64,000 nt of DNA from Flavobacterium celericrescens (GTDB lineage: Bacteria; Bacteroidota; Bacteroidia; Flavobacteriales; Flavobacteriaceae), in the NCBI RefSeq assembly GCF_011392075.1, contig NZ_JAAJBV010000002.1, positions 62,001-126,000 on the forward strand, written 5' to 3'. Position 1 is the stretch's first letter. Every line of letters begins with the position of its first letter. The notes under the pieces are model-generated. The model was not told the DNA's origin and ran no database searches. It was given only the letters and a program-made list of their open reading frames with translations. Below, one piece after another: positions 10,563 to 57,907 of the stretch. A program made the translations under genes and the position numbers.

Positions 10563-11351
10563 ATGGTTCATATAAGCTACAAACCAACAAAAAGGTACGA
10601 GACAAATTTTGATGCAGCTGAAGTTGCTAAAGAGATAGAAATTCCACTTAATAGCCAGAAATTCATTAAAGAATACTCAGAATCAGATAAATTATCAGAT
10701 GAATATGGAAAAGACTTATTTTTAATTTTTGACAAAGAAATAGTTTATGCTTTTGATTATTTATATGATAGTAAAAAAATTGTGATTCCAGAAATTAATC
10801 CAGTTCTGATATTCTATTCAAATGCAATTCTTTGTCATGCGTCATTATTTCATTTCAAATCTGAATTACTAAAAAAATCTCCAGAAATAACTAAAATACA
10901 AGGTCGTATCCATCCGGCAGATTTTGCAGACTTCGCAAAATTGGCAGTCAACTGCATTGTAAATTTACAGGGAGCAATTGAAAGTTTTTTAAATTATTCA
11001 ATTCCTGAAAACCATAAATTTATTTCAAAAAAGAAAAAAGAAATTAATCATCCAAGCATACACAATAAACTTGACGCAATATCGATAATTTCAAAAAAAT
11101 CTTATGAAGAAAGTCATCCTTCAGAATTTGTTCTAATTAAAAACTTAATTGATTTGCGTAATGATATAATTCACCTGAAACCAATAAAAGATGAGACAAA
11201 TACTAAATACAAAATGCTTTTTCGTAGAATGATTGATTTTGATTTTCTTAACGCTACTTTAGCAATTAGAGATTTCATAAACTACTATGAACCGGAATTG
11301 ATTGAAGAATGTCCATGTGGAAAAGAATATTTTTATCTCATCAAATCATAA
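10563..11351 (+). CDS. HEPN-like protein candidate (262 aa)
   Basis: The protein is soluble and largely helical. Residues R199 to H204 (RNDIIH) fit the Rx4-6H signature of HEPN ribonuclease domains, and the preceding helices (LVLIKNLIDL-like pattern at 189-198) are placed as expected. HEPN domains are common in toxins and anti-phage abortive systems. The match is a short motif only, so the assignment is tentative. A C-terminal CPCGKEY segment could bind metal. Cassette ends GTTATAGGAA and TTCCTATAAC match and pairing extends to about 15 positions. Confidence 0.65.
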   Translation: MVHISYKPTKRYETNFDAAEVAKEIEIPLNSQKFIKEYSESDKLSDEYGKDLFLIFDKEIVYAFDYLYDSKKIVIPEINPVLIFYSNAILCHASLFHFKSELLKKSPEITKIQGRIHPADFADFAKLAVNCIVNLQGAIESFLNYSIPENHKFISKKKKEINHPSIHNKLDAISIISKKSYEESHPSEFVLIKNLIDLRNDIIHLKPIKDETNTKYKMLFRRMIDFDFLNATLAIRDFINYYEPELIEECPCGKEYFYLIKS

Positions 11352-11370
11352 TCAAAATATTTAGGCTTCC

Positions 11371-11501
11371 TATAACAGGCGTTTGGCAAGATTGCGAATT
11401 TTGTAGTAAATTCACGTTTATTTCTCGCAAGAAATTTTATCTTTGATAGAAATTAATCGGTTCCGAAGTTCGCAACCTCGCCAAGCGCCGGAACGTTAGC
11501 C
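11371..11501 (+). repeat. attC-like site 14 (type B)
   Basis: R'' TATAAC (11371-11376) and R' GTTAGCC (11495-11501). Nearly identical to site 2 in the middle. Promoter box TATCTTTG at 11438-11445. Confidence 0.86.
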
Positions 11502-15756: not shown

Positions 15757-16560
15757 ATGGCTAGACAGAAAGGCGTTTTAAAGTATGTGGGGACTCTTGG
15801 AGATGTTCGCCACTTTAAAATTAAAGGACAAGAAGGGTACTTTGCCGGAATGGTAGGTGGACCTTCAGGGGAGCAAGTTTTATCAGCTCCAGAATTTGAA
15901 AGAACTCGTGAGAACATGAACGAGTTTGGTGCTTGTGCTAAAGCAGGAAAATCGGTTAGAACTGGTTTATCACAAATCGTGAAGCAAATGTCTGATACGC
16001 AAGTAGCAGGACGTTTAACAGCTATCATGAAGAAAATCAATTTGGAAGACCAAACCGAAGCCAGAGGGTATCGTAAAATTGAGATTACCACTCAAAGAAA
16101 TTACTTGGTAGGTTTTGAGTTTGACAAAAACACTTCCTTAAATGGTATTTTCAATGCTCCTTACAGTGTTACGCATGACCCAGCAAGAAACACTGCTGAT
16201 TTTGTAATTCCTGCATTTAATCCAGCGAATTTGATTAATGCTCCTGCTGGTGCTACTCACTTTAGATTGATTCACACGCTTTCTGTTGTGAGTGACTTTG
16301 CTTACAATGCTGTAACGAATAGTTATGATCCTATTGACACAGCTCAAAATGAAGTGAGTGATGTTCAATTTAGTGGTTTCTTAGACTTGTATGCTCCTGC
16401 AACTGCAACTACCATTACAGCAACTTTGCCAAATGGTATTACACCATCAACAGATGTTACCGTTCTTCAAGGTATTGGAATTGAGTTCTACCAAAAAGTA
16501 GGTTCAAACTATTACTTATTTGCAACAGGTAACTGCTTGAAAATTGAGGACGCATTTTAA
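15757..16560 (+). CDS. Conserved mobile-element protein of unknown function (267 aa)
   Basis: The protein begins MARQKGVLKYVGTLGDVRHF and is rich in beta strands, with a Gly/Ala-rich N-terminal third and a C-terminal domain full of Thr/Val strands (FSGFLDLYAPATATTITATL). No signal peptide. It heads a four-gene rightward module and has its own terminator at 16574-16606. I recall similar proteins next to DUF5675 genes in Flavobacterium mobile elements, but no function is established. A structural, phage-like role is one possibility; I see no capsid hallmark. Confidence 0.75.
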   Translation: MARQKGVLKYVGTLGDVRHFKIKGQEGYFAGMVGGPSGEQVLSAPEFERTRENMNEFGACAKAGKSVRTGLSQIVKQMSDTQVAGRLTAIMKKINLEDQTEARGYRKIEITTQRNYLVGFEFDKNTSLNGIFNAPYSVTHDPARNTADFVIPAFNPANLINAPAGATHFRLIHTLSVVSDFAYNAVTNSYDPIDTAQNEVSDVQFSGFLDLYAPATATTITATLPNGITPSTDVTVLQGIGIEFYQKVGSNYYLFATGNCLKIEDAF

Positions 16561-16573
16561 GAATCCTACTTAC

Positions 16574-16606
16574 AAATCCCTCAGAAGCTCTGGGGGATTT
16601 TTTGTT
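16574..16606 (+). terminator. Intrinsic terminator
   Basis: Stem AATCCCTCAGA with TCTGGGGGATT (one mismatch), followed by a T-run, 14 bases after the stop of the preceding gene. Confidence 0.8.
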
Positions 16607-16628
16607 TTAACTTACTAATTCAATTCCC

Positions 16629-17081
16629 ATGGAAACAAAAATCATTCGCGTAGCACAGGGCAAACAAAGTACCTTAAGCCAATTATATATCAACGGAGTA
16701 TTTCAATGTTATTTACTAGAGGATAAAATACGAACTGAAAAAATCAAGGAACATACTGCCATACCTACTGGAACCTATTCATTGCAGCTTAATACTTGGG
16801 GTGCAAAAAATGTCAACTACAAAAAGGCATTTGGAAAAGTTCACCAAGGTATGATTGAAATTACAGGTTTACCAAATTTCAGTTATGTGTATATCCATAC
16901 AGGAAATACGATTGAAGATACCGCAGGATGTCCGCTTTGTGGATTTGGGTTCCAACTTATCCAGGGCGATTACCGAGTTAATCAAAGTGTTATGGCTTAC
17001 CAAATGATTTATCCTAAACTAGTTGCATTAGCAAAGAACAAAGCAAACAAGATTAGTATCGAAAACAATTTCCAATTTTAA
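16629..17081 (+). CDS. DUF5675 family protein (150 aa)
   Basis: The sequence contains LSQLYINGVFQCYLLED, an AIPTGTYSLQL turn, and the signature YVYIHTGNTIEDTAGCPLCG (about residues 96-115). These are characteristic of the DUF5675 family. Members occur in prophages and mobile elements, often beside holin-like genes. The His/Asp/Cys arrangement resembles L,D-transpeptidase-type or cell-wall peptidase active sites, so a peptidoglycan role is inferred, not shown. There is no signal peptide, so it would need a holin or lysis to reach the wall. Two small membrane-protein genes follow closely. Confidence 0.82.
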   Translation: METKIIRVAQGKQSTLSQLYINGVFQCYLLEDKIRTEKIKEHTAIPTGTYSLQLNTWGAKNVNYKKAFGKVHQGMIEITGLPNFSYVYIHTGNTIEDTAGCPLCGFGFQLIQGDYRVNQSVMAYQMIYPKLVALAKNKANKISIENNFQF

Positions 17082-17093
17082 ACTTGTAATGCC

Positions 17094-17357
17094 ATGGAAC
17101 AAGCTCCACAATTAATGGTACTTTTTGGAAGTTTAATAAGCTTATTATTATCGGTTGTAGCCTATTTTATCAAACAATTGCACACAGATTTCAAAAGAAT
17201 GGAAAAAGACCTTGTTGAAGTAAAAACCATGGCATTATTAATCAAAACCGAGTTTAAAAGTAGTAGTGATTTACTGAACCAAAAAGTAGATTATTTAGAA
17301 CACCGAGTACAAAAATTAGAATTAAACATTTTTAAAAATCACGAACATGAAAAGTAA
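17094..17357 (+). CDS. Holin-like small membrane protein (87 aa)
   Basis: One N-terminal membrane helix (LMVLFGSLISLLLSVVAYFI) is followed by a charged coiled coil (about residues 30-80, FKRMEKDLVEVKTMALLIK and LEHRVQKLELNIF). This architecture is common in phage-encoded spanin- or holin-like proteins and in small membrane scaffolds. The gene sits 12 bases after the DUF5675 gene and overlaps the next one by 11 bases, so the three are likely co-translated. Confidence 0.7.
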   Translation: MEQAPQLMVLFGSLISLLLSVVAYFIKQLHTDFKRMEKDLVEVKTMALLIKTEFKSSSDLLNQKVDYLEHRVQKLELNIFKNHEHEK

Positions 17358-17604
17358 TGAAATGAATATCGTTCAAAGAGTAAAAGCTCCAACACCAAAG
17401 TTTTTCAAAGTATTGAGAACAATTGGTTTAGCCTTGGCAACCGTTGGAGGAACTATCATCGCTTCACCAATTGCATTGCCGGCTGGATTAGTTGCAGCTG
17501 CAGGTTATTTGGTTTTGGGCGGTGGTGTATTGTCGGCAGTATCGCAAACCGCTGTACAAGATGACGACGAACCGAGAGTTCCACAGGAAGACAGGGTTCA
17601 ATAA
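17347..17604 (+). CDS. Small two-helix membrane protein (85 aa)
   Basis: Two hydrophobic segments are visible at about residues 25-45 (TIGLALATVGGTIIASPIAL) and 47-67 (AGLVAAAGYLVLGGGVLSAV), with a short acidic tail. Glycine-rich helices like these are typical of phage holins and small pore-forming peptides. It overlaps the preceding gene by 11 bases and is followed by a terminator at 17632-17661, so it ends the module. Function inferred only from shape and neighbours. Confidence 0.7.
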   Translation: MKSNEMNIVQRVKAPTPKFFKVLRTIGLALATVGGTIIASPIALPAGLVAAAGYLVLGGGVLSAVSQTAVQDDDEPRVPQEDRVQ

Positions 17605-17631
17605 ACCTAAATTTGCTTAAAAATTGCAATC

Positions 17632-17661
17632 AAAAGCTCCTATTTCAGGGGCTTTTTTTTG
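17632..17661 (+). terminator. Intrinsic terminator
   Basis: Stem AAAAGCTCC with GGGGCTTTT followed by a run of T, ending the four-gene module. Confidence 0.85.
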
Positions 17662-17773
17662 TTTTATACCCAATTGCATCGCTTTTTCCAATTTTATTTA
17701 ATTGGTGCGTTCATATTGCGGTTATGTATTGTTTTGCTTCGGGATAGGGATTGTTTTTGGAAATTTGATGAAA

Positions 17774-46353: not shown

Positions 46354-48672
46354 ATGAAAAAAATATACATTTTAACAATGTTGTTATTAATGTCAGTTGC
46401 AACATTTGCTCAGAGTCAAGATTATATGAGCTATCAAGCAGTAATTAGAAATGCTAGCAACAACTTAATAACAAACCAACCTGTAGGAATGAAAATTAGT
46501 ATTTTACAAGGTTCGGCAATTGGAACTGCAGTCTATGAAGAGACACAAACGCCTACTTCAAATATAAATGGATTAGTTACTCTTGCAATTGGTGGAGGAA
46601 GTACAATTTCTGGTTCATACGGCACTATAAATTGGGCAAATGGTCCTTATTTTATAAAAACAGAAACAGATCCAACAGGAGGAACAAATTATACAATTGT
46701 TGGAGTAACGCAATTTTTAAGTGTTCCTTATGCGCTTTATGCTGCAAATTCAGGGAGTTCAATACCTGGCCCACAAGGTCCTGCTGGATTAAATGGTACA
46801 GATGGTATTAACGGTTTAGATGGAGCAACAGGTCCAATGGGTCCACAAGGCCCTGCTGGAATAAATGGTTTAGACGGTGCAACTGGTCCAATGGGTTCTC
46901 AAGGTCCTGCTGGATTAAATGGTGTAGACGGTATTAACGGTTTAGATGGAGCAACAGGTGCAATGGGTCCACAAGGTCCTGCTGGATTGAATGGTTTAGA
47001 CGGTGCAACTGGCCCAATGGGTCCTCAAGGTCCTGCTGGATTGAATGGTGTAGACGGTGCAACTGGCCCAATGGGTCCTCAAGGTCCTGCTGGATTGAAT
47101 GGTGTAGACGGTGCAACTGGTCCGATGGGTCCTCAAGGTCCTGCTGGATTAAATGGTGTAGACGGTATTAACGGTTTAGATGGTGCAACAGGTCCAATGG
47201 GTCCACAAGGTCCTGCTGGATTAAATGGTACAGATGGTATTAACGGTTTAGATGGTACAACTGGCCCAATGGGTCCACAAGGTCCTGCCGGATTGAATGG
47301 TGTAGACGGTGCTACTGGTCCGATGGGTCCTCAAGGTCCTGCTGGATTGAATGGTTTAGACGGTGCAACTGGCCCAATGGGTCCTCAAGGTCCTGCTGGA
47401 TTGAATGGTGTAGACGGTGCAACTGGTCCGATGGGTCCTCAAGGTCCAGCTGGATTAAATGGTGTAGACGGTATTAACGGTTTAGATGGAGCAACAGGTC
47501 CGATGGGTCCTCAAGGTCCTGCTGGATTGAATGGTTTAGACGGTGCAACTGGTCCAATGGGTCCACAAGGTCCTGCTGGATTAAATGGTGTAGACGGTAT
47601 TAACGGTTTAGATGGAGCAACAGGTCCAATGGGTCCACAAGGTCCTGCTGGATTAAATGGTACAGATGGTATTAACGGTTTAGATGGTGCAACTGGTCCA
47701 ATGGGTCCTCAAGGTCCTGCTGGATTAAATGGTACTGATGGTATTAACGGTTTAGATGGTGCAACTGGCCCAATGGGCCCACAAGGCCCTGCTGGATTGA
47801 ATGGTGCAGATGGTATTAATGGTTTAGACGGTGCAACAGGTCCAATGGGTCCTCAAGGTCCTGCTGGATTAAATGGTACAGATGGTATTAACGGTTTAGA
47901 CGGTGCAACTGGCCCAATGGGTCCTCAAGGTCCTGCTGGATTAAATGGTGTAGACGGTATTAACGGTTTAGATGGAGCAACAGGCCCAATGGGTCCACAA
48001 GGTCCTGCTGGAATAAATGGTGTAGACGGTATTAATGGTTTAGACGGTGCTACTGGCCCAATGGGTCCACAAGGTCCTGCTGGATTGAATGGTGTAGACG
48101 GTATTAATGGTTTAGACGGTGCAACTGGTCCAATGGGTCCTCAAGGTCCTGCTGGTAATGATGGTTTAGATGGTGCAACTGGTCCGATGGGTCCACAAGG
48201 TCCCGCTGGTAATGATGGTTTAGACGGTGCTACTGGCCCTATGGGTCCTCAAGGTCCTGCTGGAATAAATGGTGTAGACGGAGCAACTGGCCCGATGGGT
48301 CCTCAAGGTCCAATGGGTCCATCAGGAGTTCCTACAGCATTTACATTTCTTTCTAAAACAACTGACTATACTATCACTTCTAGTGACATTTTAAATAATG
48401 TATATTTAAAAAATACTAGTAACTCGTTAATTACAATTACACTTCCAAGCGCTAGTATAGCTGGATCTGGTAAGATGATTTATATCACAAGTACATCAAC
48501 TAGTTTATACCAATCTATAAATGTATTGAGTAATGGTATTGATAGCATATATGGCTTTTACAGTAATCCAACAGGTACTATGAATATATCAACAATGACT
48601 TCTTCTAACATAGGTTGGATTCAATTGATTAGTGATGGAACAAGCTGGAATATTTTAGGAATGTATTGGTAA
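46354..48672 (+). CDS. Collagen-like repeat surface protein (772 aa)
   Basis: After a signal peptide (MKKIYILTMLLLMSVATFAQ) comes a roughly 120-residue N-terminal domain (SYQAVIRNASNNLI, VTQFLSVPYALYAANS) seen in many flavobacterial fibre proteins. Residues about 143-658 are uninterrupted Gly-X-Y triplets made of units such as GPMGPQGPAGLNG and VDGINGLDGAT, which should form a collagen-type triple helix. The last 110 residues are a beta-rich cap (TFLSKTTDYTITSSDILNNV). It is probably a rod-like surface fibre, trimerised by the end domains. The repeat DNA is highly similar unit to unit and likely varies in number among strains. Confidence 0.9.
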   Translation: MKKIYILTMLLLMSVATFAQSQDYMSYQAVIRNASNNLITNQPVGMKISILQGSAIGTAVYEETQTPTSNINGLVTLAIGGGSTISGSYGTINWANGPYFIKTETDPTGGTNYTIVGVTQFLSVPYALYAANSGSSIPGPQGPAGLNGTDGINGLDGATGPMGPQGPAGINGLDGATGPMGSQGPAGLNGVDGINGLDGATGAMGPQGPAGLNGLDGATGPMGPQGPAGLNGVDGATGPMGPQGPAGLNGVDGATGPMGPQGPAGLNGVDGINGLDGATGPMGPQGPAGLNGTDGINGLDGTTGPMGPQGPAGLNGVDGATGPMGPQGPAGLNGLDGATGPMGPQGPAGLNGVDGATGPMGPQGPAGLNGVDGINGLDGATGPMGPQGPAGLNGLDGATGPMGPQGPAGLNGVDGINGLDGATGPMGPQGPAGLNGTDGINGLDGATGPMGPQGPAGLNGTDGINGLDGATGPMGPQGPAGLNGADGINGLDGATGPMGPQGPAGLNGTDGINGLDGATGPMGPQGPAGLNGVDGINGLDGATGPMGPQGPAGINGVDGINGLDGATGPMGPQGPAGLNGVDGINGLDGATGPMGPQGPAGNDGLDGATGPMGPQGPAGNDGLDGATGPMGPQGPAGINGVDGATGPMGPQGPMGPSGVPTAFTFLSKTTDYTITSSDILNNVYLKNTSNSLITITLPSASIAGSGKMIYITSTSTSLYQSINVLSNGIDSIYGFYSNPTGTMNISTMTSSNIGWIQLISDGTSWNILGMYW
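46770..48327 (+). repeat. Tandem repeat encoding collagen-like region
   Basis: About 1.5 kb of repeating 45- and 72-base units encoding Gly-X-Y triplets, with synonymous variation only in many copies. Confidence 0.9.
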
Positions 48673-48770
48673 TTTTAAGAACTCGAAAATTATCAATACG
48701 AATGCTTTACAAAATATAAAGCAAATGAATTTCAAAATTTAAATAATTATGTTAAGCAATAATTAGAACA

Positions 48771-48803
48771 AAAAAGCTACAACAATAGATGTTGTAGCTT
48801 TTT
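48771..48803. terminator. Bidirectional terminator
   Basis: Arms AAAAAGCTACAAC and GTTGTAGCTTTTT around a seven-base loop, between two convergent genes. Confidence 0.9.
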
Positions 48804-48826
48804 TATTTATCATAATTTCAAAAAAA

Positions 48827-49573
48827 TCAATACTTACCACTCAACAACTCACCACCGATTGCTGATTTAGCTTCAATACCAATTTTTTTCATCATTTCAT
48901 AAGTAGTACAAACCGCTGCAGAAGTTACTGGAATTCCACATTCCGCCTGAATCAAATCGATTGCTTCTAGTGATGGCATTTGCACACAAGCTGAAGCTAC
49001 TAAAACATCAACATCTGTTAAATCTAATTGCTTATAGATTTCCAAAAGATTCATTGGATTTTGAGCGGCAACTTCTAAGTTATCAGGAATCTCTAAAGCG
49101 ATACTTTGTTTTACTTTAATTCCTTGATTTTCTATATAATCTACAACCATATCTGTTAATGGTCGCATATAAGGTGTAATAATCGAAATTTGTTTAGCTC
49201 CTAACACTTTCAATCCATTGATTAAAGCTCCTGCGGAAGTTACAATTGGAGTAGGAAAATCGTTTGCCACCGTTTCTTGATGCAAATTTACTTCCGAAAC
49301 ACAATGATAACCACGTCCCATACTCATAATTGCTACTAAACATGCGTATCCCATTACGTCTACATGTGCATCAGATAATTCTTGCGCACATTTTAAACTC
49401 ATAGCATCCATAGCTTCTAATTCTTCTTTAGTCACTTTTTTCATTCGCATTCTACTGCTATGAAAGGTAAAACGTTCAGGTAGAATGGTTTCACGGGAGC
49501 GGAAGATTGCTGGTATTTCGGTTTCCATCGTTACGTTTGAGGATGGAACTATTTGGCCGATTCTGTATTTCAT
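48827..49573 (-). CDS. Maleate cis-trans isomerase (Asp/Glu racemase superfamily)
   Basis: The two catalytic cysteines of the family are present, in MGYACLVAIMSMGRG (about residue 74) and VASACVQMPSLEA (about 195). Supporting motifs are TSAGALINGLKVLGAKQI and ITPYMRPLTD. At 248 aa it has the usual length of NicE/MaiA-type enzymes. It converts maleate to fumarate, and arylmalonate decarboxylase is the main alternative. As the last gene of the aromatic-degradation operon, next to an FAH hydrolase, it fits the final step feeding the TCA cycle. Confidence 0.85.
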   Translation of the reverse strand: MKYRIGQIVPSSNVTMETEIPAIFRSRETILPERFTFHSSRMRMKKVTKEELEAMDAMSLKCAQELSDAHVDVMGYACLVAIMSMGRGYHCVSEVNLHQETVANDFPTPIVTSAGALINGLKVLGAKQISIITPYMRPLTDMVVDYIENQGIKVKQSIALEIPDNLEVAAQNPMNLLEIYKQLDLTDVDVLVASACVQMPSLEAIDLIQAECGIPVTSAAVCTTYEMMKKIGIEAKSAIGGELLSGKY

Positions 49574-49642
49574 TTTTATTAGTTTACAGTCTCAGTCTCA
49601 GTCAACAGTCTGAAAACTGAAAACTGCGACTGAATACTTTTA

Positions 49643-50551
49643 TTATATTTCTTTAATCGTATTTGTTATTGTTCCAATCCCTTCCACAGTTGCCTCAACT
49701 ACATCGCCATCATATATCCATTCTTGTGGGTCGCGACCTGCGCCAACGCCTGCTGGAGTTCCTGTTGCGATAATATCACCTGCTTCTAAAGTGAAAACGG
49801 TACTTAAATCTTCAATCAAATCGTTGATGTTGAAAAGCATGAATTTGGTATTCGAATTTTGTTTTTCAACACCATTTACTTTCAATGATAAATTCAAGTT
49901 GTGTGGGTTTTCGATTTCGTCTTTCGTAACAATAACTGGTCCCATCGGTGCAAAAGTATCTTGTCCTTTAGAAACAATCCACTGCCCTTCTCTACGGCAA
50001 TCACGTGCTGAAATATCGTTAATCACTGTATAACCAAAAACATAATCTAAAGCGTCTGATTTTGATACATATTTTCCTTTTTTACCAATAATCACAGCTA
50101 ATTCACATTCCCAATCCAATTGCGAAGTTAACTTCGTGTTTTTAATGATTTCGGTATTCGTTGCTGTAACCGTTGTGGGTGGTTTTGAGAAGATAATCGG
50201 TTTGGTTGGAAGTTTTCCAGTTGTGTCTAATGTACGAGCACTTTCGGCTACGTGTTCTGTATAATTTAAACCAATTCCGATGATGTTTTTTCTTGGTTTT
50301 TCGATTGGGGCTAAAATGGTTACTTCGCTCATTTCATAAGCGATTTCTTCGAAGAAATTCTCAGGTGTTTCCGCAATCATTTCTGTTATTTCTGGAATAA
50401 TTTCAAATCCCATATCAATTAATTCTAACATATCGTTTGGTAATGGGAAATTGGAAACATCTCCAAAATCCTGCATATCGATAACTTGGTTATTATGAAT
50501 AAAGCCTAAACGTGGCTCGGTGTCTTGTGTTTTATAGGTAAGTAGTTTCAT
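49643..50551 (-). CDS. Fumarylacetoacetate-hydrolase family protein (302 aa)
   Basis: Motifs IGLNYTEHVAES (about 96), DWECELAVIIGKKG (about 147, metal-binding Glu residues), DISARDCRREGQW and the C-terminal GDIIATGTPAGVG identify the FAH superfamily. These enzymes cleave C-C bonds in acylpyruvates. In this operon it should hydrolyse the ring-cleavage product (maleylpyruvate or its amide), giving pyruvate plus maleate or maleamate. No separate maleylpyruvate isomerase is present, which fits direct hydrolysis. Confidence 0.88.
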   Translation of the reverse strand: MKLLTYKTQDTEPRLGFIHNNQVIDMQDFGDVSNFPLPNDMLELIDMGFEIIPEITEMIAETPENFFEEIAYEMSEVTILAPIEKPRKNIIGIGLNYTEHVAESARTLDTTGKLPTKPIIFSKPPTTVTATNTEIIKNTKLTSQLDWECELAVIIGKKGKYVSKSDALDYVFGYTVINDISARDCRREGQWIVSKGQDTFAPMGPVIVTKDEIENPHNLNLSLKVNGVEKQNSNTKFMLFNINDLIEDLSTVFTLEAGDIIATGTPAGVGAGRDPQEWIYDGDVVEATVEGIGTITNTIKEI

Positions 50552-50611
50552 ATTTTTTATTTAACCGCAAAGAGCGCTAAGTTTTACGCAAAGTTCGCAA
50601 AGTTTTTGTTG

Positions 50612-51724
50612 TTATTGAATTTGTTGATGTCCGTTGTTTTCTGTTAATTCTCTTCCTTGGTATAATCCCAATCCTTCAATCACTGGTAAATCGTTGAAAT
50701 TGAAAAGGCAAGCATCTTCGGTTTCGGATAAATTGTGATGTTCGTGCCAAGCCCAACTCGGAACACAGAAAATATCACGCTCTTTCCAATCGAAACGTTT
50801 TCCGTTGATGATCGTGTAGCCTTTTCCTTTGGCGCATTGGTACACAAATGAACCGGTATGTTTGTGTGCTTTTCCTTTGAATCCTGCTGGTAATAATTGC
50901 ATCGCAGCTCCCATAGTTTGCATTACGTGTCCACCAGTTAATGGATTCGAATATTGCATAAAAATGCCATCAAACGGATTGACTTCATTGACTTTATGCG
51001 CTTCTAATAAGGCTGGATACACATTTTTCCAAGAATATTTGAATAGTGGAGAATAAGGTTTATCCCAAGTTTTATCGGCTGGAATCAATCCTGCACAACC
51101 ATACGTTATTGGTGAAAAATTCAAGGGTGCTATCAATGGTTGTTTACCATCATAAACTGCATAATCATTAGCTTCTAAAGCATTCACCAACGGAATATCT
51201 AAACCATCTTGCCAAATGCAGGTTTTCCCACCTTCTTCTACACCATGTTCGTGCCAAGTGAAATTAGGAGTAATAACAAAATCGTTTACTTCTAACATGA
51301 TTTTATTACCATCTACAACCGTATAACCTTTTTCGCCTTCCATAATAAAACGTAAAGCCGAAGCACGATGACGGTGTGCCGAAGTAAATTCACCAGGACG
51401 CGTAACTTGAATTCCAGTATATAGCCAACCCACAGCTGCTGAAACATCTTTACGTTTGTCGTTTACCAAATATACAACGCGTCTTCCAGCTTGTTCTGGC
51501 GTTACTAATTCGGATGATTTTAGAACTAATTCGCGTAAATCATCATATTTCCATAACATAGGAACCGAAGAAGAACGCGGTTCCCAAGGTTCGATATCAT
51601 TAGCGACCGTCCATAAAGCTCCAGCGCCAAGCGTTTCTAACTCTTTATAATAGGCTTTTAGTTCGTCTGAATCTTGAACTCGCGCTCTTCCGTATTGGTC
51701 GTCTGAAAAATTATTTGTTTCCAT
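50612..51724 (-). CDS. Gentisate 1,2-dioxygenase-like bicupin (370 aa)
   Basis: Two cupin domains are visible. The first has the iron-binding HRHRASALRFIMEGEKGYT (about residue 117) and TWHEHG. The second has KHTGSFVYQCAKGKGYT and AWHEHH. Length and order match gentisate 1,2-dioxygenases, which open the ring between the carboxyl- and hydroxyl-bearing carbons. Relatives act on 1-hydroxy-2-naphthoate or 5-aminosalicylate, so the true substrate could be gentisate or 5-hydroxyanthranilate. The N-terminal QYGRARVQDSDELKAYYKEL segment is also family-typical. Confidence 0.85.
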   Translation of the reverse strand: METNNFSDDQYGRARVQDSDELKAYYKELETLGAGALWTVANDIEPWEPRSSSVPMLWKYDDLRELVLKSSELVTPEQAGRRVVYLVNDKRKDVSAAVGWLYTGIQVTRPGEFTSAHRHRASALRFIMEGEKGYTVVDGNKIMLEVNDFVITPNFTWHEHGVEEGGKTCIWQDGLDIPLVNALEANDYAVYDGKQPLIAPLNFSPITYGCAGLIPADKTWDKPYSPLFKYSWKNVYPALLEAHKVNEVNPFDGIFMQYSNPLTGGHVMQTMGAAMQLLPAGFKGKAHKHTGSFVYQCAKGKGYTIINGKRFDWKERDIFCVPSWAWHEHHNLSETEDACLFNFNDLPVIEGLGLYQGRELTENNGHQQIQ

Positions 51725-51768
51725 AATCTTATGTTTTAATTAGTGACTTCGAGAGCCTCAGCCATCAA

Positions 51769-52752
51769 TTATTTATCTTTATTAAACTCCTCGTGATTAT
51801 CAATAAAGGTAATCTTACGTGTAGGAGCAGTGTTTACTCTTAAATCAAAAATATCAAATCGGTTGTAATGTCCTAAAATATCGTGCATTTGTTTCGGTTG
51901 AATACATTTTGCTAAATCTATTTCGGCATACACCATTCCTTCTTCATCGATAAGTGGTTGTCCGATTACAGCACCATTTGGACCAATAAATCCTGAGAAA
52001 GCCGAACTTTTTCTATCCAATAATTCATCTACATTTGGAACATCAGCACGTAAAGCATCTTTGATTTCTTGTGAAACGGTTGAACATGATACAATCGTAA
52101 ACAATTTTCCTTCAAACGAATGCGCAGCCGCACGAATTTTAATTGCTTCTGCCATATCGTAATCCGGTGGCGCTACTGGCAATGAAATGTAATTCGCTAT
52201 ATGAATCAATTCGCCTTGAGAAAGTAGCGTAAAACGCGCTAAAGTATTTGTGTTTTCACCACAAGCTAAAGTTCCTATGGGACCAATTTCTGTATTGTAC
52301 ACTTTTAACGAAGAACCGTCACCTGAAGACCACGTTAGTTTTTCGGCCCAGGTTGGGACTAATTTTCTGTGTTTCCCAACGATAACGCCTTTGTTGTCGA
52401 TGATTAAGTTGGTGTTATAAATTTCGCCATAGCTTTTACCGCGCTCGTTGATTCCCATTACGATATGAATGTCATTATCTTTGGCAGCTAAGCAAAGTTT
52501 TTTTATTTCTGGACCGGCTACATCAACCGAATTTTTATATAATTCTTCATACCATTTACTGCCTTGAACTGGCGTCATAATCCAATTCCAATAAGGATAT
52601 CCTGCGATAAAAACCTCCGGAAAAGCGATTAATTTTGCTCCGTTATTGCTCGCTTCTTTAATGAAAGAAATGGCTTTATCGACTGTTTTTTCTACATTTA
52701 GAAATACTGGTGACGTTTGAACGGTTGCGGCTTTGAATTTTTTGAATTCCAT
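51769..52752 (-). CDS. Nitrilase-superfamily hydrolase (327 aa)
   Basis: The catalytic triad is intact: Glu in LIAFPEVFIAGYPYWNW (about 46), Lys in KHRKLVPTW (about 133) and Cys in LACGENTNTLARF (about 169). These flanks are those of true nitrilases, not of most amidases. In this operon it could release a carboxylic acid from an aromatic nitrile, or hydrolyse an amide such as maleamate if the substrate is 2-aminobenzoate. The pathway context makes the second idea attractive, the sequence the first. Confidence 0.85.
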   Translation of the reverse strand: MEFKKFKAATVQTSPVFLNVEKTVDKAISFIKEASNNGAKLIAFPEVFIAGYPYWNWIMTPVQGSKWYEELYKNSVDVAGPEIKKLCLAAKDNDIHIVMGINERGKSYGEIYNTNLIIDNKGVIVGKHRKLVPTWAEKLTWSSGDGSSLKVYNTEIGPIGTLACGENTNTLARFTLLSQGELIHIANYISLPVAPPDYDMAEAIKIRAAAHSFEGKLFTIVSCSTVSQEIKDALRADVPNVDELLDRKSSAFSGFIGPNGAVIGQPLIDEEGMVYAEIDLAKCIQPKQMHDILGHYNRFDIFDLRVNTAPTRKITFIDNHEEFNKDK

Positions 52753-52756
52753 TTGT

Positions 52757-52820
52757 GAATTTTTTTTTGGAACACAGATTGGAGAAATTTTTAAAATTTA
52801 TATAATTTCTTAAATCTGTG
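52757..52820. repeat. Intergenic palindromic repeat (ACACAGATT type)
   Basis: GGAACACAGATT and AAATCTGTGTTTC form arms around an AT-rich loop between two operon genes; such sequences are common between flavobacterial genes. Confidence 0.55.
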
Positions 52821-52829
52821 TTTCTAGTT

Positions 52830-53249
52830 TTATAATTCGTATTGCTTTATTTTATTCTTCATTTCTTCTGTAAAAGGTTCGGCTTTGATGCCGTTTCTTT
52901 CTGGGTTGAAAGCTACGTTTACCAATGTTACTTCGCCTTCTAAAACGGTGTTTTCTGATTCATTTACAAACTGAAATCCGCAGAGTATTGACGAGTTTTT
53001 TAATTCTTTTACCCAAAGTTTTTTGGTTAAGATTTCTCCCAATCTTGCGGCATTTTTAAATTGAATTTTCAAATCAACCGTTGGAATACCATTGGTTTCG
53101 TGCATTTTTGAAAAAGGACGATTTAAGGCTTCTTCAAACCAATCTTCTACTAAACAATTTAGCATTTCTAAAAATCTTGGATAGAAGACAATTCCAGCAT
53201 AATCAACATGTTGGAAACGTACTTTTTCTTGTTTTATGAATTCACTCAT
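52830..53249 (-). CDS. Acyl-CoA thioesterase, 4HBT/YbgC family (139 aa)
   Basis: The hot-dog fold signature VRFQHVDYAGIVFYPRFLEM (about residues 11-30), with the catalytic Asp in HVDYAG, identifies a 4-hydroxybenzoyl-CoA thioesterase-type enzyme. Length is typical. In the operon it should release the free ring-hydroxylated acid from its CoA ester before ring cleavage by the dioxygenase. The gene sits between the ligase and nitrilase genes with short gaps. Confidence 0.87.
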   Translation of the reverse strand: MSEFIKQEKVRFQHVDYAGIVFYPRFLEMLNCLVEDWFEEALNRPFSKMHETNGIPTVDLKIQFKNAARLGEILTKKLWVKELKNSSILCGFQFVNESENTVLEGEVTLVNVAFNPERNGIKAEPFTEEMKNKIKQYEL

Positions 53250-53339
53250 TTTGTTTGTTATCTAAATTATGAGATTCCTGCTTACGTCGGAATTACAAGA
53301 TTATCTTTTTTTTGCTAATTACTTTTCACTATTTACTAA

Positions 53340-54929
53340 TCACTTCAGCTTAAATCGTTGTATTTTTCCTGTCTCCGTTTTTGGTAAACATTCCACAAAA
53401 TTAATCACTCTTGGATATTTATAAGGGGCCGCTACTTCTTTGAACCAGTGTTGGATACGATTCTTCATCACATCTGTCGCTTTAGATGTGTCATGTAACA
53501 CAATATGCGCACAAACTAGCATTCCTCGCTCTTCATCGGGTAAACCAACAACGGCACATTCCAAAATATCTTCGTGGGTTAAAAGTACGGATTCTACTTC
53601 AATTGCCGCAATATTATAGCCCGAAGAAATAATCATATCATCGCCACGTGCCACAAAATGGAAATAGCCTTCTTCATCTTGACGGAAAATATCTCCTGTG
53701 ATATTCCAACCATTTTCTACATATTCGCGTTGTTTTTCCTCTCGGTTTAGGTATTTACAACCTGTAATTCCTCGAACGGCTAGTCTTCCGGCTTCGTTTC
53801 TTGGTAATTCGTTTCCTTGTTTGTCTATGATTTTAGCTTCGTAACCCGTAATCGCTTTTCCAGTAGCGCCTGGTTTCATATTTTCTTCATTAGATGAAAT
53901 AAAAATATGCAACATTTCGGTAGCACCGATTCCATCTATGATTTTTAAACCTGTAGCATCGTACCAATCTTGCCAGACTTTTAAAGGCAAGGTTTCGCCA
54001 GCAGATACACATTTTCTTAAACTCGAAATATCGTAATCTTGAACTTTGGTTGTTATGATGCGCCAAGCAGTAGGAGCGGTGAAGCAAATCGTAATTTTAA
54101 AATCTTGAATTGCTTTCAATAATAAATCTGGACTTGGTTTTTCAATTAGAAATGTTGAAGCTCCGAAATACATCGGAAACAACACTAATCCACCCAAACC
54201 AAAAGTAAATCCTATTGGCGGACTTCCTGTGAAAATATCATTTTGTGTTGGCTGTAAAGAATAGTTTGGAAATGCTTCACATATATTCAAAATGTCTTTG
54301 TGATAATGCGCTGTCATTTTAGGTAAACCCGTTGTTCCAGAAGTGAAACCAATTAAAGCAATTGAATCGGATTTGGAATGATAATTATCGAAAGTTTTGG
54401 GTTTAGAAGCCATTAATTCTTCCAATTGCGAATTCCCATAAAAACACGTTTGTTTCAGAAAATCCGATTTTACTAAATGAATTTCTTCTTCCAATTCCTT
54501 ATCACACAATACATGTGAAATTTCGGCACAATCAATAATCGTAGTTAGTTCTTTTGAACGAAGTAATGGCATGGTAGCCACAACGATTCCGCCCGCTTTC
54601 AAAATAGCAAACCAACACGCTACCATCATCGGATTATTCGCCGAACGAATCAAAACGCGATTACCTGATTTCAAACCCAAATCATCCACCAAAACATGTG
54701 CAATTTGATTTGCTTTTTCAAATAAATCTTGATATGTCCAAGTTTCTTCAAATGTGCGAATGCAACTATTGTTTCCACGACCTTCGCGAATGTGGCTGTC
54801 CAACAATCTATCTACGCAATTTAGCATTTCAGATTGTTGGAATTGAGGTAAATCCAAAAAAGTGTATTCTGATTGTAATTCCAGAGATGGTAAGCTATTG
54901 TGTGCAAAATTATCTTCGTAATGTTTCAT
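53340..54929 (-). CDS. Aromatic acid-CoA ligase, 2-aminobenzoate/salicylate type (529 aa)
   Basis: The AMP-binding motif GFTSGTTGLPKM (about 193), GIGATEM (about 335), TGDIFRQDEEG and the catalytic lysine in PKTETGKIQRF near the C-terminus are all present. The overall pattern is that of benzoate- and 2-aminobenzoate-CoA ligases. The downstream hydroxylase/reductase fusion is known to act on 2-aminobenzoyl-CoA or salicylyl-CoA, which narrows the substrate to an ortho-substituted benzoate. It ends 9 bases before the fusion gene's stop region begins, so the two are closely linked. Confidence 0.88.
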   Translation of the reverse strand: MKHYEDNFAHNSLPSLELQSEYTFLDLPQFQQSEMLNCVDRLLDSHIREGRGNNSCIRTFEETWTYQDLFEKANQIAHVLVDDLGLKSGNRVLIRSANNPMMVACWFAILKAGGIVVATMPLLRSKELTTIIDCAEISHVLCDKELEEEIHLVKSDFLKQTCFYGNSQLEELMASKPKTFDNYHSKSDSIALIGFTSGTTGLPKMTAHYHKDILNICEAFPNYSLQPTQNDIFTGSPPIGFTFGLGGLVLFPMYFGASTFLIEKPSPDLLLKAIQDFKITICFTAPTAWRIITTKVQDYDISSLRKCVSAGETLPLKVWQDWYDATGLKIIDGIGATEMLHIFISSNEENMKPGATGKAITGYEAKIIDKQGNELPRNEAGRLAVRGITGCKYLNREEKQREYVENGWNITGDIFRQDEEGYFHFVARGDDMIISSGYNIAAIEVESVLLTHEDILECAVVGLPDEERGMLVCAHIVLHDTSKATDVMKNRIQHWFKEVAAPYKYPRVINFVECLPKTETGKIQRFKLK

Positions 54930-54938
54930 AATTCCTAA

Positions 54939-57236
54939 TTACTTCTTATTACTTTTCGGTTTCAACGCTTTTTTCATGCCTTCCATTTGTTTTCTTTCCG
55001 AAGCTTTTAGTGGATACAAATGCGAAACACCCATTTTGTATTGATTTGGAATATCATTCGCTTGAAATTGTTCGTATGCTTGAGCATTTCTAACGAAATT
55101 AGCATCTAACAATAAAGGTCTTCCTAAAGCGACTAAATCAGCTCTTCCGTTTAGAAGAATAGTATTGATTTGATCAATATCTTGAATATAGCCAGCGGTT
55201 ATGGTTGGAATATGAACGGTATTTCGAACGGCATCAGAAAAAGGCGTTTGCCACATTCTGCCTGTTAGCGGTTTTTGATTTGAGACAGTATTTCCTGTAG
55301 AAACATTGATAATATCTGCTCCTGCTTTTTTGAATGCTTCCGAAATAATAAAAACCTCTTCTTCAGAGATTCCGTTTTCTGCCCAATCAGTGGCTGAAAT
55401 TCGTACTGAAATTGGTTTTTCTTTTGGAAATACTTCACGAATAGCATTAAATATCTCCAATGGATATTTTAAACGATTCTGTATTTTTCCACCAAATTCA
55501 TCAGTACGAACATTTGTTAAAGGTGATAAAAAAGATGCTAATAAAAACCCATGATGTGCTTGTAATTCGATCATATCAAAGCCTGCTTCATCAGCATTTT
55601 TAGCTGCTTGCATAAATTGTGCTTTAATTACAGCCATATCTTTCAAAGTCATCTCCTTAGGAATAGTATAATTTTCATTAAAGGGAATTGGGGAAGCCGA
55701 AATTAAATTCCATGGTGTATCGATGGGTCCATTTCCTTCAAAAGGTTTTTTAACAGCACCTTTTCGTCCCGAATGTCCTAATTGAATGGCAATTTTTGTT
55801 GAAGAGTTATGGTGAACAAACGCAGTAATTTTTTTCCATTGATTCAATTGCTCTGCATTGTAAATTCCGGCACAGCCTTCTGTTATTCTTCCAGTTTCTG
55901 AAATTGCGGTCATTTCGGTGATGATTAATCCTACGCCTCCAGTAGCACGACTTCCGTAATGCACTAAATGCCAATCAGAAACTAATCCGTCAATTGCGGA
56001 ATATTGTCCCATTGGCGCCATAACGATTCGGTTTGGAAGTTCAAGTTCTCTTATTTTAAATGGTGTAAATGCTGCAGAGTTGGAAGTCGGAAGTTTGGAG
56101 CTGGAAGTTTCCAAAAATTCTTTTAAGACCTTATCAGTAAACGAACTATCTCTCAAACGTAAATTCTCGTATGTTACTTTCTTAGAACGTGTCATGCATC
56201 CAAAAGCAAATTGTTGGAAGGAATGTTGCATGTGACGTCCCATATTTTCGAACCAATCAAGAGAAACTAAAGCTGCATACTGAATCATTTCGACAGTGTT
56301 TCTTCTAGATTTGTCGTATTGTTCAAAAGCTGCTTGTACATTATTTGGATTCGCAATCACAGCATCTGCTAAACCAATAGCACAATCCATAGCTAATTTA
56401 GTTCCTGAACCAATGGAGTAATGTGCTGTAGCCTTGGCATCACCTAATAAAACAATATTGTTATGATACCAATTTTGATTCGTAACATGTGGAAATTGAC
56501 GCCAATGCGATTTGTTTGAAATCAGTGGATGTCCGTCTAATTCTTCTTTGAAGATTTCTGTGATTTTAGCCATCGTATCTTCTTCGTTAGTAACTTCAAA
56601 ACCGTGTTTTTGCCACGTTTCATCGCTACATTCAAAAATCCACGTACTCATACCTTCTTCGTATTGATAGGTATGTGCTACTATAGTTCCATGTGGCGTA
56701 CTTCTGAAGAAATAGGTGAATGCATCAAGAGGTTTTGTAGAACCTAACCAAACGAAGCGGTTTTTCTTTAATTCGATTTTCGTTCCGAATTCAGTTTCAT
56801 GCTTTGTACGGATAGCACTTGCAATTCCGTCAGCAGCTAAAATGATATCCGAATCAGCAAATTGCGACAAATCCTCTACGTTTTGTTCGAAATGCAGATT
56901 AACACCTTCTTCGACACAGCGTTGTTGTAATAATTGTAAAAGAGTTTTACGAGAACAACCGCAAAAACCATTTCCAGCAATGCTTACTTCTTGACCATCA
57001 CGAGCGACAATAATATCATCCCAATACGCAAATTTGCTTCGAATTAATTCATACGATTGCATATCGCGTTTTAAGAATTCGCCTAAAGTTTCGTCTGAAA
57101 AAACCACTCCGAAACCAAAACTATCATCAGGTTTGTTACGTTCGTAAATATCGATTTGGAAATGTGGCATTGCTTTTTTTGTTAATATCGAAAAGTAAAG
57201 TCCGCCTGGACCACCACCTATAACTGTTATTTTCAT
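54939..57236 (-). CDS. Bifunctional salicylyl-/2-aminobenzoyl-CoA hydroxylase-oxidoreductase (765 aa)
   Basis: Start at 57236 gives MKITVIGGGPGGLYFSIL, a flavoprotein Rossmann motif; the 13-residue extension upstream is not needed. The first 370 residues form a flavin monooxygenase (GDAKATAHYSIGSGTKLAMD binds FAD). From about 395 an Old Yellow Enzyme-type reductase begins (IVMAPMGQYSAIDGLVSDWH, LGHSGRKG, ELQAHHGFLL, ALGRPLLLD). This fusion hydroxylates the CoA-bound ring and reduces it or re-oxidises the product. A low-complexity linker (SSSKLPTSNSAAF) from a GGAAGT-type repeat joins the halves. Confidence 0.9.
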   Translation of the reverse strand: MKITVIGGGPGGLYFSILTKKAMPHFQIDIYERNKPDDSFGFGVVFSDETLGEFLKRDMQSYELIRSKFAYWDDIIVARDGQEVSIAGNGFCGCSRKTLLQLLQQRCVEEGVNLHFEQNVEDLSQFADSDIILAADGIASAIRTKHETEFGTKIELKKNRFVWLGSTKPLDAFTYFFRSTPHGTIVAHTYQYEEGMSTWIFECSDETWQKHGFEVTNEEDTMAKITEIFKEELDGHPLISNKSHWRQFPHVTNQNWYHNNIVLLGDAKATAHYSIGSGTKLAMDCAIGLADAVIANPNNVQAAFEQYDKSRRNTVEMIQYAALVSLDWFENMGRHMQHSFQQFAFGCMTRSKKVTYENLRLRDSSFTDKVLKEFLETSSSKLPTSNSAAFTPFKIRELELPNRIVMAPMGQYSAIDGLVSDWHLVHYGSRATGGVGLIITEMTAISETGRITEGCAGIYNAEQLNQWKKITAFVHHNSSTKIAIQLGHSGRKGAVKKPFEGNGPIDTPWNLISASPIPFNENYTIPKEMTLKDMAVIKAQFMQAAKNADEAGFDMIELQAHHGFLLASFLSPLTNVRTDEFGGKIQNRLKYPLEIFNAIREVFPKEKPISVRISATDWAENGISEEEVFIISEAFKKAGADIINVSTGNTVSNQKPLTGRMWQTPFSDAVRNTVHIPTITAGYIQDIDQINTILLNGRADLVALGRPLLLDANFVRNAQAYEQFQANDIPNQYKMGVSHLYPLKASERKQMEGMKKALKPKSNKK

Positions 57237-57301
57237 ATTTTTTTGCACGCGGATGAAATGGATTTGCTTTGGCAAAACGTAGATTTCCGCAGATTTTTAA
57301 T

Positions 57302-57907
57302 TTATTGTCTTTTAATAGCGAATATTTCTCCTAACTTACTATAATTAGAACCTGCTAAACGAGCAACAGGTTTGTATGTTTCCAAATTGATTCTGTGATT
57401 ATCCATAAGAATTGAATCATCAATATGCATGGTGATAATTCTTCCAATAATAATACAAGCTCCACCATTTTGATGCTTTTCGATGAAATAATGATGTACC
57501 ATTTCACATTCAAAATGCACTAAACTTTCTTTGACACGTTTTGGTTTGATGTAAATAGCGTCAATTGGTGTAACACCTGCTAATTCAAATTCGTCAACAT
57601 CTGAAGCGACAGATTGAGAAGTAGTATTCATTTGCTCTACAACTTCTTCTGTAACTAAATTTACAACGAATTGTTTGTTTTCTAGTATATTATTTAAAGT
57701 GTCTTTATTTTTGTTTCCTGTTCGAACGGTTGAAAACATTACATGCGGAGGATCTTCACTAACGACATTAAAAAAAGAAAATGGAGCTAAATTATTGATT
57801 CCGTTAGTATCAATTGTAGAAATCCAACCAATAGGTCTTGGTATTACTGTTCCTGTTAAAAGCTTATATAAAGCGGAAGATTCGGTATCTTTAATATCGA
57901 ATTGCAT
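57302..57907 (-). CDS. Flavin reductase-like FMN-binding split-barrel protein (201 aa)
   Basis: TGTVIPRPIGWISTIDTNG (about residues 18-36), APFSFFNVVSEDPPHVMFS and the later CIIIGRIITMHID are typical of the flavin-reductase-like/flavoredoxin family. Length is normal for the family. It is the first gene of the operon and could supply reduced flavin to the hydroxylase fusion or act on a pathway intermediate. Its substrate is not evident from sequence. The operon promoter should lie in the 100-base gap between this gene and aroC, on the minus strand. Confidence 0.85.
   Translation of the reverse strand: MQFDIKDTESSALYKLLTGTVIPRPIGWISTIDTNGINNLAPFSFFNVVSEDPPHVMFSTVRTGNKNKDTLNNILENKQFVVNLVTEEVVEQMNTTSQSVASDVDEFELAGVTPIDAIYIKPKRVKESLVHFECEMVHHYFIEKHQNGGACIIIGRIITMHIDDSILMDNHRINLETYKPVARLAGSNYSKLGEIFAIKRQ

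Follow-up and report, generated by a model that had tools for sequence, protein, structure and literature searches.

What compound is degraded by an operon that joins a CoA ligase and a fused hydroxylase to a gentisate-dioxygenase-like enzyme and a nitrilase-superfamily protein, and at which step would nitrogen leave its substrate? The question is raised by a stretch of 64,000 nucleotides from Flavobacterium celericrescens (contig NZ_JAAJBV010000002.1; hereafter the window, in whose positions coordinates are given unless another locus is named), which carries such an operon at 48827-57907 on the minus strand. A preliminary description of this DNA had weighed a salicylate route against an amino route and leaned to the latter. 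Genome comparison bears this out in three respects: relatives linked to isatin hydrolase and an indolepyruvate-oxidoreductase-like enzyme (IOR) share the same ring-cleavage enzymes, a C-N hydrolase tracks this dioxygenase subfamily and is found in none of six ordinary clusters, and a residue (His or Gln) in the reductase part of the hydroxylase changes in register with the ring-cleaving dioxygenase. The operon thus very probably degrades anthranilate, which arises in the breakdown of tryptophan and indole, via 5-hydroxyanthranilate, the ring being opened before the nitrogen is removed, and this route appears much better supported than the salicylate route.

Every enzyme type named in the preliminary description was found at this place by domain and family profile matches; an eighth gene, encoding a flavin-reductase-like protein, had been left undiscussed. 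From 57907 downwards the gene order is FLR, HYD, LIG, TE, NIT, GDO, FAH, MI, and the listed open reading frames lie 9-90 bp apart:

57302-57907, minus strand: FLR, flavin-reductase-like split-barrel protein, the first gene (PF01613, 87 bits)
54939-57275, minus strand: HYD, FAD monooxygenase fused to an old-yellow-enzyme (OYE) domain (PF00724, PF01494, NF006101)
53340-54929, minus strand: LIG, aromatic acid CoA ligase of the benzoate-CoA-ligase family (TIGR02262, 321.5 bits)
52830-53249, minus strand: TE, hotdog (4HBT) acyl-CoA thioesterase (PF13279/PF03061; TIGR00051 below its cut-off)
51769-52752, minus strand: NIT, nitrilase-superfamily (CN_hydrolase) enzyme (PF00795; TIGR04048, 234 bits)
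50612-51724, minus strand: GDO, gentisate-dioxygenase-like bicupin (TIGR02272, 304.6 bits; PDB 3bu7, 513 bits)
49643-50551, minus strand: FAH, fumarylacetoacetate-hydrolase-family protein (PF01557, 234 bits)
48827-49573, minus strand: MI, Amdase/maleate-isomerase-type protein, the last gene (4fq7/4fq5, 314/310 bits)
48767-48807: bidirectional terminator-like hairpin 3' of MI, 18 pairs with a loop of 5 on the minus strand

In the route that we propose, every substrate and reaction of which is drawn from genome comparison, LIG would convert anthranilate (2-aminobenzoate) to anthraniloyl-CoA, and the monooxygenase half of HYD would hydroxylate the latter at C5. The OYE half of HYD would no longer hydrogenate the ring, and the product would stay aromatic because Gln replaces an OYE active-site His. 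TE would free 5-hydroxyanthranilate from its CoA thioester, and GDO, as a 5-hydroxyanthranilate 1,2-dioxygenase, would cleave the ring between C1 and C2 to the carboxamide maleamoylpyruvate. FAH would act as an acylpyruvate hydrolase, splitting maleamoylpyruvate into maleamate and pyruvate. NIT would turn maleamate into maleate and ammonia, or act on maleamoylpyruvate, in either order with FAH, and MI would convert maleate to fumarate.

Labels of known families do not fit HYD, GDO, LIG and NIT well, since all four score under the curated NCBIfam cut-offs. HYD reached 980.4 bits against a cut-off of 1078 for NF006101, the curated salicylyl-CoA 5-hydroxylase/oxidoreductase model (the match begins at residue 14, and the true start is likely the ATG at 57236). 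The corresponding cut-offs were 442.1 bits for GDO with TIGR02272, the curated gentisate 1,2-dioxygenase model, 375 for LIG and 503 for NIT. The best PDB match of LIG was the anthranilate-CoA ligase 4wv3 (279 bits), followed by the benzoate-CoA ligase 2v7b (216 bits); this is a weak pointer, because few ligases for ortho-substituted substrates have likely been solved. LIG is also 45.7% identical to the pAL1 ligase of Arthrobacter Rue61a, taken as the assayed ligase of that strain, for which activity on anthranilate was measured according to the accessible text of PMC3534580. At the lower end of the route, MI is nearest to maleate cis-trans isomerase, its match with 4fq7 covering residues 3-248. 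Both active-site-type Cys of 4fq7, which we take to be the catalytic residues of maleate isomerase, are aligned and kept, in agreement with that assignment. Maleate isomerase acts after maleamate amidase in the breakdown of nicotine and nicotinate. The PDB matches of FAH include the maleylpyruvate hydrolase 6jvv (97 bits), which is not the best match. In NIT, E46, K130 and C164 are invariant in 11 aligned sequences and correspond to the Glu-Lys-Cys catalytic triad of the nitrilase superfamily.

The arrangement of the operon is not chance. We compared 80 related contigs (among named relatives of HYD, Flavobacterium contigs rank best, at up to 92%), and the window's gene order is kept wherever the genes were found. 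FLR and HYD are present in 80 contigs, LIG in 79, TE in 70, NIT in 68, GDO in 62, FAH in 60 and MI in 58, the shortfalls being mostly due to contig ends. NIT accompanies GDO in 62 of 62 loci, and the complete eight-gene set occurs in 58. Mean identity to the window, computed on the 56 loci with all eight genes at a length of at least 85%, was 94.8% for MI, 89.7% for GDO, 89.3% for NIT, 85.9% for LIG, 85.6% for FAH, 80.8% for HYD, 80.5% for TE and 76.6% for FLR. As the values for NIT and GDO lie side by side, NIT is conserved as strictly as the core enzymes. Within the genus Flavobacterium, HYD (E <= 1e-100) is present in 157 of 398 genomes; across the family it was found at the same threshold in 2 of 397, the window's own and that of locus L164 from a related genus. 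GDO (E <= 1e-40) occurs in 6 of 395 genomes across the phylum, all six of the same genus.

The association of GDO with a C-N hydrolase extends beyond Flavobacterium. A search of plasmids with GDO gave 201 records, among which 30 matches were listed, 17 at 54.9-64.2% identity and 13 weaker. Thirteen of the stronger matches were opened (L113-L125), and N. humi NZ_CP117418 (L155) was reached through HYD, as was L164, giving 15 loci of the GDO subfamily outside Flavobacterium. Flanks of 12 kb were viewed for L113-L125, and of 8 kb for L155 and for the six weaker matches that were opened (L143-L148). These six are ordinary clusters at 36-41% identity to GDO, four of them with an annotated gtdA; in the other two an unnamed cupin neighbours genes for an FAD monooxygenase and an FAH. 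In the tree, the branch between the GDO subfamily and six other dioxygenases has a support of 100/99. Of the 15 subfamily loci, 13 have a C-N hydrolase close to GDO, versus none of the six ordinary clusters, in which neither NIT nor MI homologues were found. In L143, an isochorismatase-family gene lies 1.7 kb from the GDO homologue.

NIT and GDO stand side by side in the tblastn search of plasmids. Of the 13 loci with a C-N hydrolase, Tistrella has it 6 kb from GDO and the other 12 have it at 1.5 kb or less. It is of the NIT type in nine loci (L113, L114, L115, L117, L121, L122, L123, L125 and L164). A second kind, about 34% identical to NIT, is present in four (L119, L120, L124 and L155) and occupies the place of NIT in Novosphingobium, Aminobacter and, 6 kb off, Tistrella. 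FLR homologues stand beside GDO/FAH in L118, L119, L124 and L155, and also in L120, where the second C-N hydrolase is 6 kb off.

The upper pathway genes around these blocks point to an amino substrate. In Ruegeria pomeroyi (L113), Shinella (L115), Sagittula (L117) and Sulfitobacter THAF37 (L122), NIT-GDO-FAH-MI stands beside IOR alpha/beta and a thioesterase. In Caballeronia (L114) the order is IOR alpha/beta, TE, HYD, GDO, FAH, NIT, MI, a regulator and isatin hydrolase. Across these five loci, identity to the window is 63.5-66.6% for NIT and 58.4-62.4% for GDO. The isatin hydrolase gene, which is found on four of these proteobacterial plasmids, adjoins the block in Caballeronia and Shinella and lies 5-8 kb from MI in Sagittula and Sulfitobacter. 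Its assignment rests on solved structures in L114 (461 bits to 5nmp), L115 (336 bits to 5nna) and L164 (368 bits to 5nmp), while in L117 and L122 it rests on similarity (60%) to the protein of L114.

L164, from a related genus of the same family, is the most informative locus: identities to the window are 64% for HYD, 48% for TE, 64% for NIT, 65% for GDO, 56% for FAH and 70% for MI, and no other GDO or HYD in the trees stands nearer to those of Flavobacterium. One strand carries MI-FAH-GDO-NIT, and the divergent strand an SDR, a StyA-like monooxygenase, a StyB-like reductase, HYD, isatin hydrolase, IOR alpha, IOR beta, an amine-oxidase-type protein and TE; no CoA ligase was found at the locus. 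Isatinate carries an amino group ortho to its alpha-keto acid side chain, and an IOR-type enzyme would convert it to anthraniloyl-CoA, taking the place of the ligase; no CoA ester other than an aminobenzoyl-CoA could come from isatin. With isatin hydrolase and IOR as the predicted entry in L164, the same downstream enzymes would receive an amino substrate there, to which LIG in the window would be the simplest equivalent entry. The locus as a whole (L164:1-19001) looks like a complete indole-to-fumarate cluster, in which the path would begin with the StyA/StyB-like monooxygenase, continue with isatin hydrolase and IOR and end in the ring-cleavage block. Two of its genes were not placed, the amine-oxidase-type protein (16114-17694) and a luciferase-like monooxygenase (183-1292).

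A further line of evidence comes from HYD itself. The preliminary description had overlooked its OYE half, which sets the route apart from the 2-aminobenzoyl-CoA route. The segment IELHMAHGYLL of the solved OYE 3hf3 aligns with IELQAHHGFLL of the window's HYD, placing Gln572 opposite a His that we take to line the OYE active site; the intact OYE site of the 2-aminobenzoyl-CoA pathway is therefore missing. Gln occupies this site in 80 of 80 Flavobacterium-type HYDs, on 62 of whose contigs GDO is visible, and in five of five other HYDs with GDO nearby (L114, L116, L124, L155 and L164). His is found in ten of ten HYDs without GDO within ~8 kb (L127, L149-L154, L156, L157 and L161/L163), nine being plasmid loci opened among 40 matches listed and one coming from a replicon search. 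Overall HYD identity fails to split the two kinds (43.7-44.8% vs 44.5-45.7%); the OYE site alone does. The residue fits the gene context in 23 of 23 tree rows. The Gln HYDs are not one clade but require three changes, and a single Gln clade was rejected by the approximately unbiased (AU) test (p 3.5e-5, for a group defined from the pattern itself).

The genes accompanying the two kinds of HYD differ as well. RidA, which presumably deaminates the reduced enamine product, is present in all ten His-type clusters, six of which also hold an SDR and an enoyl-CoA hydratase, and one (L150) an SDR. It was absent at E <= 1e-15 from L114, L116, L124, L155 and the 80 contigs, and at 1e-8 from L164. Homologues of SDR, enoyl-CoA hydratase, acyl-CoA dehydrogenase, hydroxyacyl-CoA dehydrogenase and thiolase were likewise not found at the 80 loci (E <= 1e-15), except for one SDR match of 27%. 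From the distribution of Gln/His, RidA and GDO, ring-reducing clusters would have RidA on hand for the enamine nitrogen, whereas clusters with the altered OYE site would instead have a ring-cleaving dioxygenase, joined in most cases by a C-N hydrolase. In L151, L152 and L154, on Arthrobacter and Rhodococcus plasmids, a His-type HYD is accompanied by RidA, a small cupin, an FAH-family gene and an acyl-CoA thioesterase, with no SDR or enoyl-CoA hydratase beside HYD; these clusters are perhaps a third variant. On the Ruegeria pomeroyi megaplasmid, the NIT-GDO-FAH-MI block (L113) coexists with a classical 2-aminobenzoyl-CoA cluster (L127), whose HYD has tryptophan 2,3-dioxygenase in its vicinity.

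Several observations weigh against the anthranilate route. All gentisate-binding residues that were checked are kept in GDO. R81, Y102, G104, Q106, H117, H119, R125, H158, H160 and D173 comprise iron-binding His and residues binding the carboxylate and the 5-hydroxyl, the roles of some of them being assumed by us from other gentisate dioxygenases. The roles of the remainder are described in the accessible part of PMC10306065. GDO should therefore need a carboxylate and a 5-hydroxyl, and the residues are silent on an amino or a hydroxyl group at C2. Moreover, 3BU7 from Ruegeria (Silicibacter) pomeroyi, whose PDB sequence agrees with L113 GDO throughout the part aligned, stands in the accessible text of PMC4585797 as a purified and characterized gentisate dioxygenase; in the accessible parts of the sources consulted, we found no record of a test with 5-hydroxyanthranilate.

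NIT belongs, by alignment to solved nitrilases, to the true-nitrilase branch, whose usual substrates are nitriles; NitA and other nitrilases are its best solved relatives, and no report of a nitrilase acting on maleamate was found in the accessible parts of the open-access literature, the single paper matched being unrelated. L116, which lies beside transposases, and L118 show no C-N hydrolase in the 25 kb seen, and in Polaromonas (L126) a NIT homologue of 54% identity stands more than 10 kb from any GDO. HYD was found neither near the block in Ruegeria, Shinella (L115), Sagittula and Sulfitobacter THAF37 nor (E <= 1e-100) on the Shinella, Sagittula and Sulfitobacter replicons, where the substrate may already be 5-hydroxylated or the hydroxylase may lie elsewhere. 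The His/Gln pattern comprises two independent pairs on well-supported branches and three on all branches (sign test, p 0.5). Three His-type HYDs (Ruegeria L127, Leisingera L156 and Shinella L163) share their replicon with a GDO block elsewhere, 18 kb off in Leisingera, and L155 has a weak RidA-like match 6 kb away. FLR is present in all 80 related contigs, yet no proposed step requires it, and the preliminary description went too far in stating that the amino route explains every gene. The best PDB matches of FLR are 3bpk and 4z85, a 2-nitrobenzoate nitroreductase. It may, as speculation, reduce a quinone imine formed from 5-hydroxyanthranilate in air.

Co-occurrence with kynurenine and tryptophan genes was considered as evidence for the anthranilate route and dropped, which also counts on the negative side. 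We compared 40 operon-plus with 40 operon-minus genomes, hand-picked from the 157 positive and 241 negative among 398. Sixteen of the operon-minus genomes were named negative and 24 assumed so from their absence among the match rows, some being incomplete, down to 75%. Kynureninase scored over its cut-off in 40 vs 38 genomes; corresponding counts were, for 3-hydroxyanthranilate dioxygenase, 40 vs 35 and, for tryptophan dioxygenase, 40 vs 36. As nearly all Flavobacterium genomes have these genes, irrespective of the operon, their presence provides no evidence for the route.

Which other explanations could accommodate these data? In a salicylate route, salicylyl-CoA would be converted via gentisyl-CoA, gentisate and maleylpyruvate to maleate plus pyruvate and then to fumarate, with NIT as a passenger or in an unrelated role. 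The gentisate-type active site of GDO and the record of 3BU7 speak for this, as does the NCBI label 'salicylyl-CoA 5-hydroxylase' on relatives of HYD, a label that is also given to those in anthraniloyl-CoA-type clusters. Against it, NIT is present in 62 of 62 GDO loci, with a conservation about like that of GDO. L164 has isatin hydrolase and IOR in place of the ligase, NIT and MI are absent from all six ordinary dioxygenase clusters, and HYD, GDO and LIG score below the cut-offs of the named families. We consider this route very unlikely.

A second alternative has NIT acting upstream, converting a nitrile to anthranilate or another aromatic acid, the remainder following either route. It agrees with the place of NIT in the true-nitrilase branch, with NitA among its best solved relatives, and with the Polaromonas homologue that is separate from GDO. 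In the other opened loci, however, NIT keeps company with the ring-cleavage genes, and Leisingera (L121) has a NIT-GDO-FAH-MI block without upper-pathway genes in 25 kb. The distant C-N hydrolase standing in the same place in Novosphingobium, Aminobacter and Tistrella likewise speaks against this alternative, and an upstream nitrilase has in our estimate only a slight chance of being correct.

Still less probable is a conversion of anthranilate via 5-hydroxyanthranilate to gentisate with loss of ammonia, followed by the gentisate route. A 5-hydroxyanthranilate/gentisate route for anthranilate was proposed in 1968 for Nocardia opaca (accessible text of PMC4539516), but family and domain profiles revealed no deaminase-like gene of that kind in the operon, and the nitrilase would be left idle. 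Finally, the classical 2-aminobenzoyl-CoA route, in which HYD would reduce the ring ahead of beta-oxidation-like steps, has next to no chance of applying here: HYD does belong to the same fused family (43.7-45.7% identity to both kinds), but its OYE-site His is Gln, no beta-oxidation-like genes or RidA were found in the 80 loci at E <= 1e-15 bar the single SDR match, and the operon holds a ring-cleaving dioxygenase.

The proposed anthranilate route can be set against known systems, and we rate it, as predicted, as a variant of the anthraniloyl-CoA pathway. Like the 2-aminobenzoyl-CoA pathway of Azoarcus evansii and Arthrobacter sp. Rue61a, the window combines a CoA ligase with a fused FAD monooxygenase/OYE enzyme predicted to act on anthraniloyl-CoA. 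That pathway includes a ring reduction, after which the intermediates are proposed to remain CoA thioesters, and RidA was present in the ten clusters viewed; the window differs by Gln for the OYE His and by a thioesterase and a bicupin dioxygenase as subsequent enzymes, and the nitrogen would exit as an amide. According to the accessible text of PMC3534580, the fused enzymes of the 2-aminobenzoyl-CoA route form a ring-reduced product, and NADH limitation leads to the aromatic 5-hydroxyanthraniloyl-CoA with the related monooxygenase/reductase of Arthrobacter Rue61a, which counts in favour of the proposed route. With the salicylyl-CoA/gentisate pathway the window shares CoA activation, 5-hydroxylation, thioester hydrolysis and 1,2-cleavage in that order, but that pathway needs no nitrogen step, and the six ordinary clusters carry no nitrilase or MI homologue. 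The maleamate route of nicotinate and nicotine degradation, which uses a maleamate amidase of isochorismatase-like type and a maleate isomerase, likewise runs from maleamate over maleate to fumarate with a homologous isomerase, whereas the amidase proposed for the window is a nitrilase-superfamily enzyme. The isatin-hydrolase-linked clusters (L114, L115, L117, L122 and L164) share GDO, FAH, NIT and MI with the window, and L114 and L164 also HYD and TE; their entry is apparently via isatin hydrolase and an IOR-like enzyme, that of the window via a CoA ligase. The enzyme of PDB 3BU7 (GDOsp) is of the same bicupin subfamily as GDO, with metal-binding-type His in both cupins. It is annotated and characterized for gentisate, and its sequence agrees with that of GDO in the Ruegeria NIT-GDO-FAH-MI block beside IOR.

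Some features of the loci stand apart from this argument. In L118, on a Sulfitobacter alexandrii plasmid, GDO-FAH-FLR is accompanied by RidA and a thioesterase, with no HYD on the replicon and RidA instead of a C-N hydrolase; a weak Asp/Glu racemase match lies upstream (10727-11419). Among the 80 contigs, L065, L068, L086, L087 and L088 have different genes 3' of LIG or NIT, GDO returning about 6 kb on in L088. A protein consisting of the glutamate-synthase FMN domain alone (PF01645, 303 bits; cluster c4, e.g. L087:14101-15684) follows LIG as an insertion in 23 of 80 loci, in an operon expected to release ammonia. Neither this nor the other inserted genes (AHSA1, alpha/beta hydrolase, methyltransferase) nor an adjoining OsmC gene gave a testable pathway clue. 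A few of the 80 contigs bear other names (Paenimyroides; Rhizobium for L073, Bifidobacterium breve for L084, Chryseobacterium gleum for L049); the latter three assemblies are probably mislabelled, their operons being Flavobacterium-like with HYD at 80-84% identity. In the window, a promoter scan gave no signal (27 sites vs 34 expected), and the GDO-FAH gap contains, at 50587-50602, CGCAAAGTTCGCAAAG, which looks like part of a dispersed repeat and has a single copy in the window (0.05 expected, <=2 mismatches). The neighbouring gene on the plus strand (46354-48672) encodes a 772-residue collagen-repeat protein (PF01391).

Taken beyond Flavobacterium, the comparison makes us lean, with some reserve, towards a widespread aerobic route that has so far had no name. 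The ring of 5-hydroxyanthranilate would be cleaved with its nitrogen in place, giving an amide, and the two distantly similar kinds of nitrilase-superfamily enzyme would be maleamate or maleamoylpyruvate amidohydrolases. HYD would have lost its ring-reducing site more than once on joining this route, and the 3BU7 subfamily would be 5-hydroxyanthranilate 1,2-dioxygenases. One lower pathway would then serve anthranilate (window), isatin or indole (L164 and Caballeronia) and other inputs. On this comparison, some proteins appear to bear the names 'salicylyl-CoA 5-hydroxylase' or 'gentisate dioxygenase' in error.

In addition to the proposal for Nocardia, an indole-isatin-anthranilate-gentisate route was put forward for an Alcaligenes in 1983 (PMC4539516, PMC6221969, in their accessible parts). 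The accessible text of a 2018 review states that the functional gene of the gentisate pathway was not revealed and its enzyme unreported (PMC6221969), and in the accessible parts of the open-access literature we found neither genes for 5-hydroxyanthranilate cleavage nor a gene set for this route. The operon of F. celericrescens represents a complete candidate gene set for such a route. It predicts the point at which nitrogen would exit, as an amide and through a nitrilase, and the Gln/His position in the OYE domain offers a one-residue marker that may separate two anthraniloyl-CoA routes.

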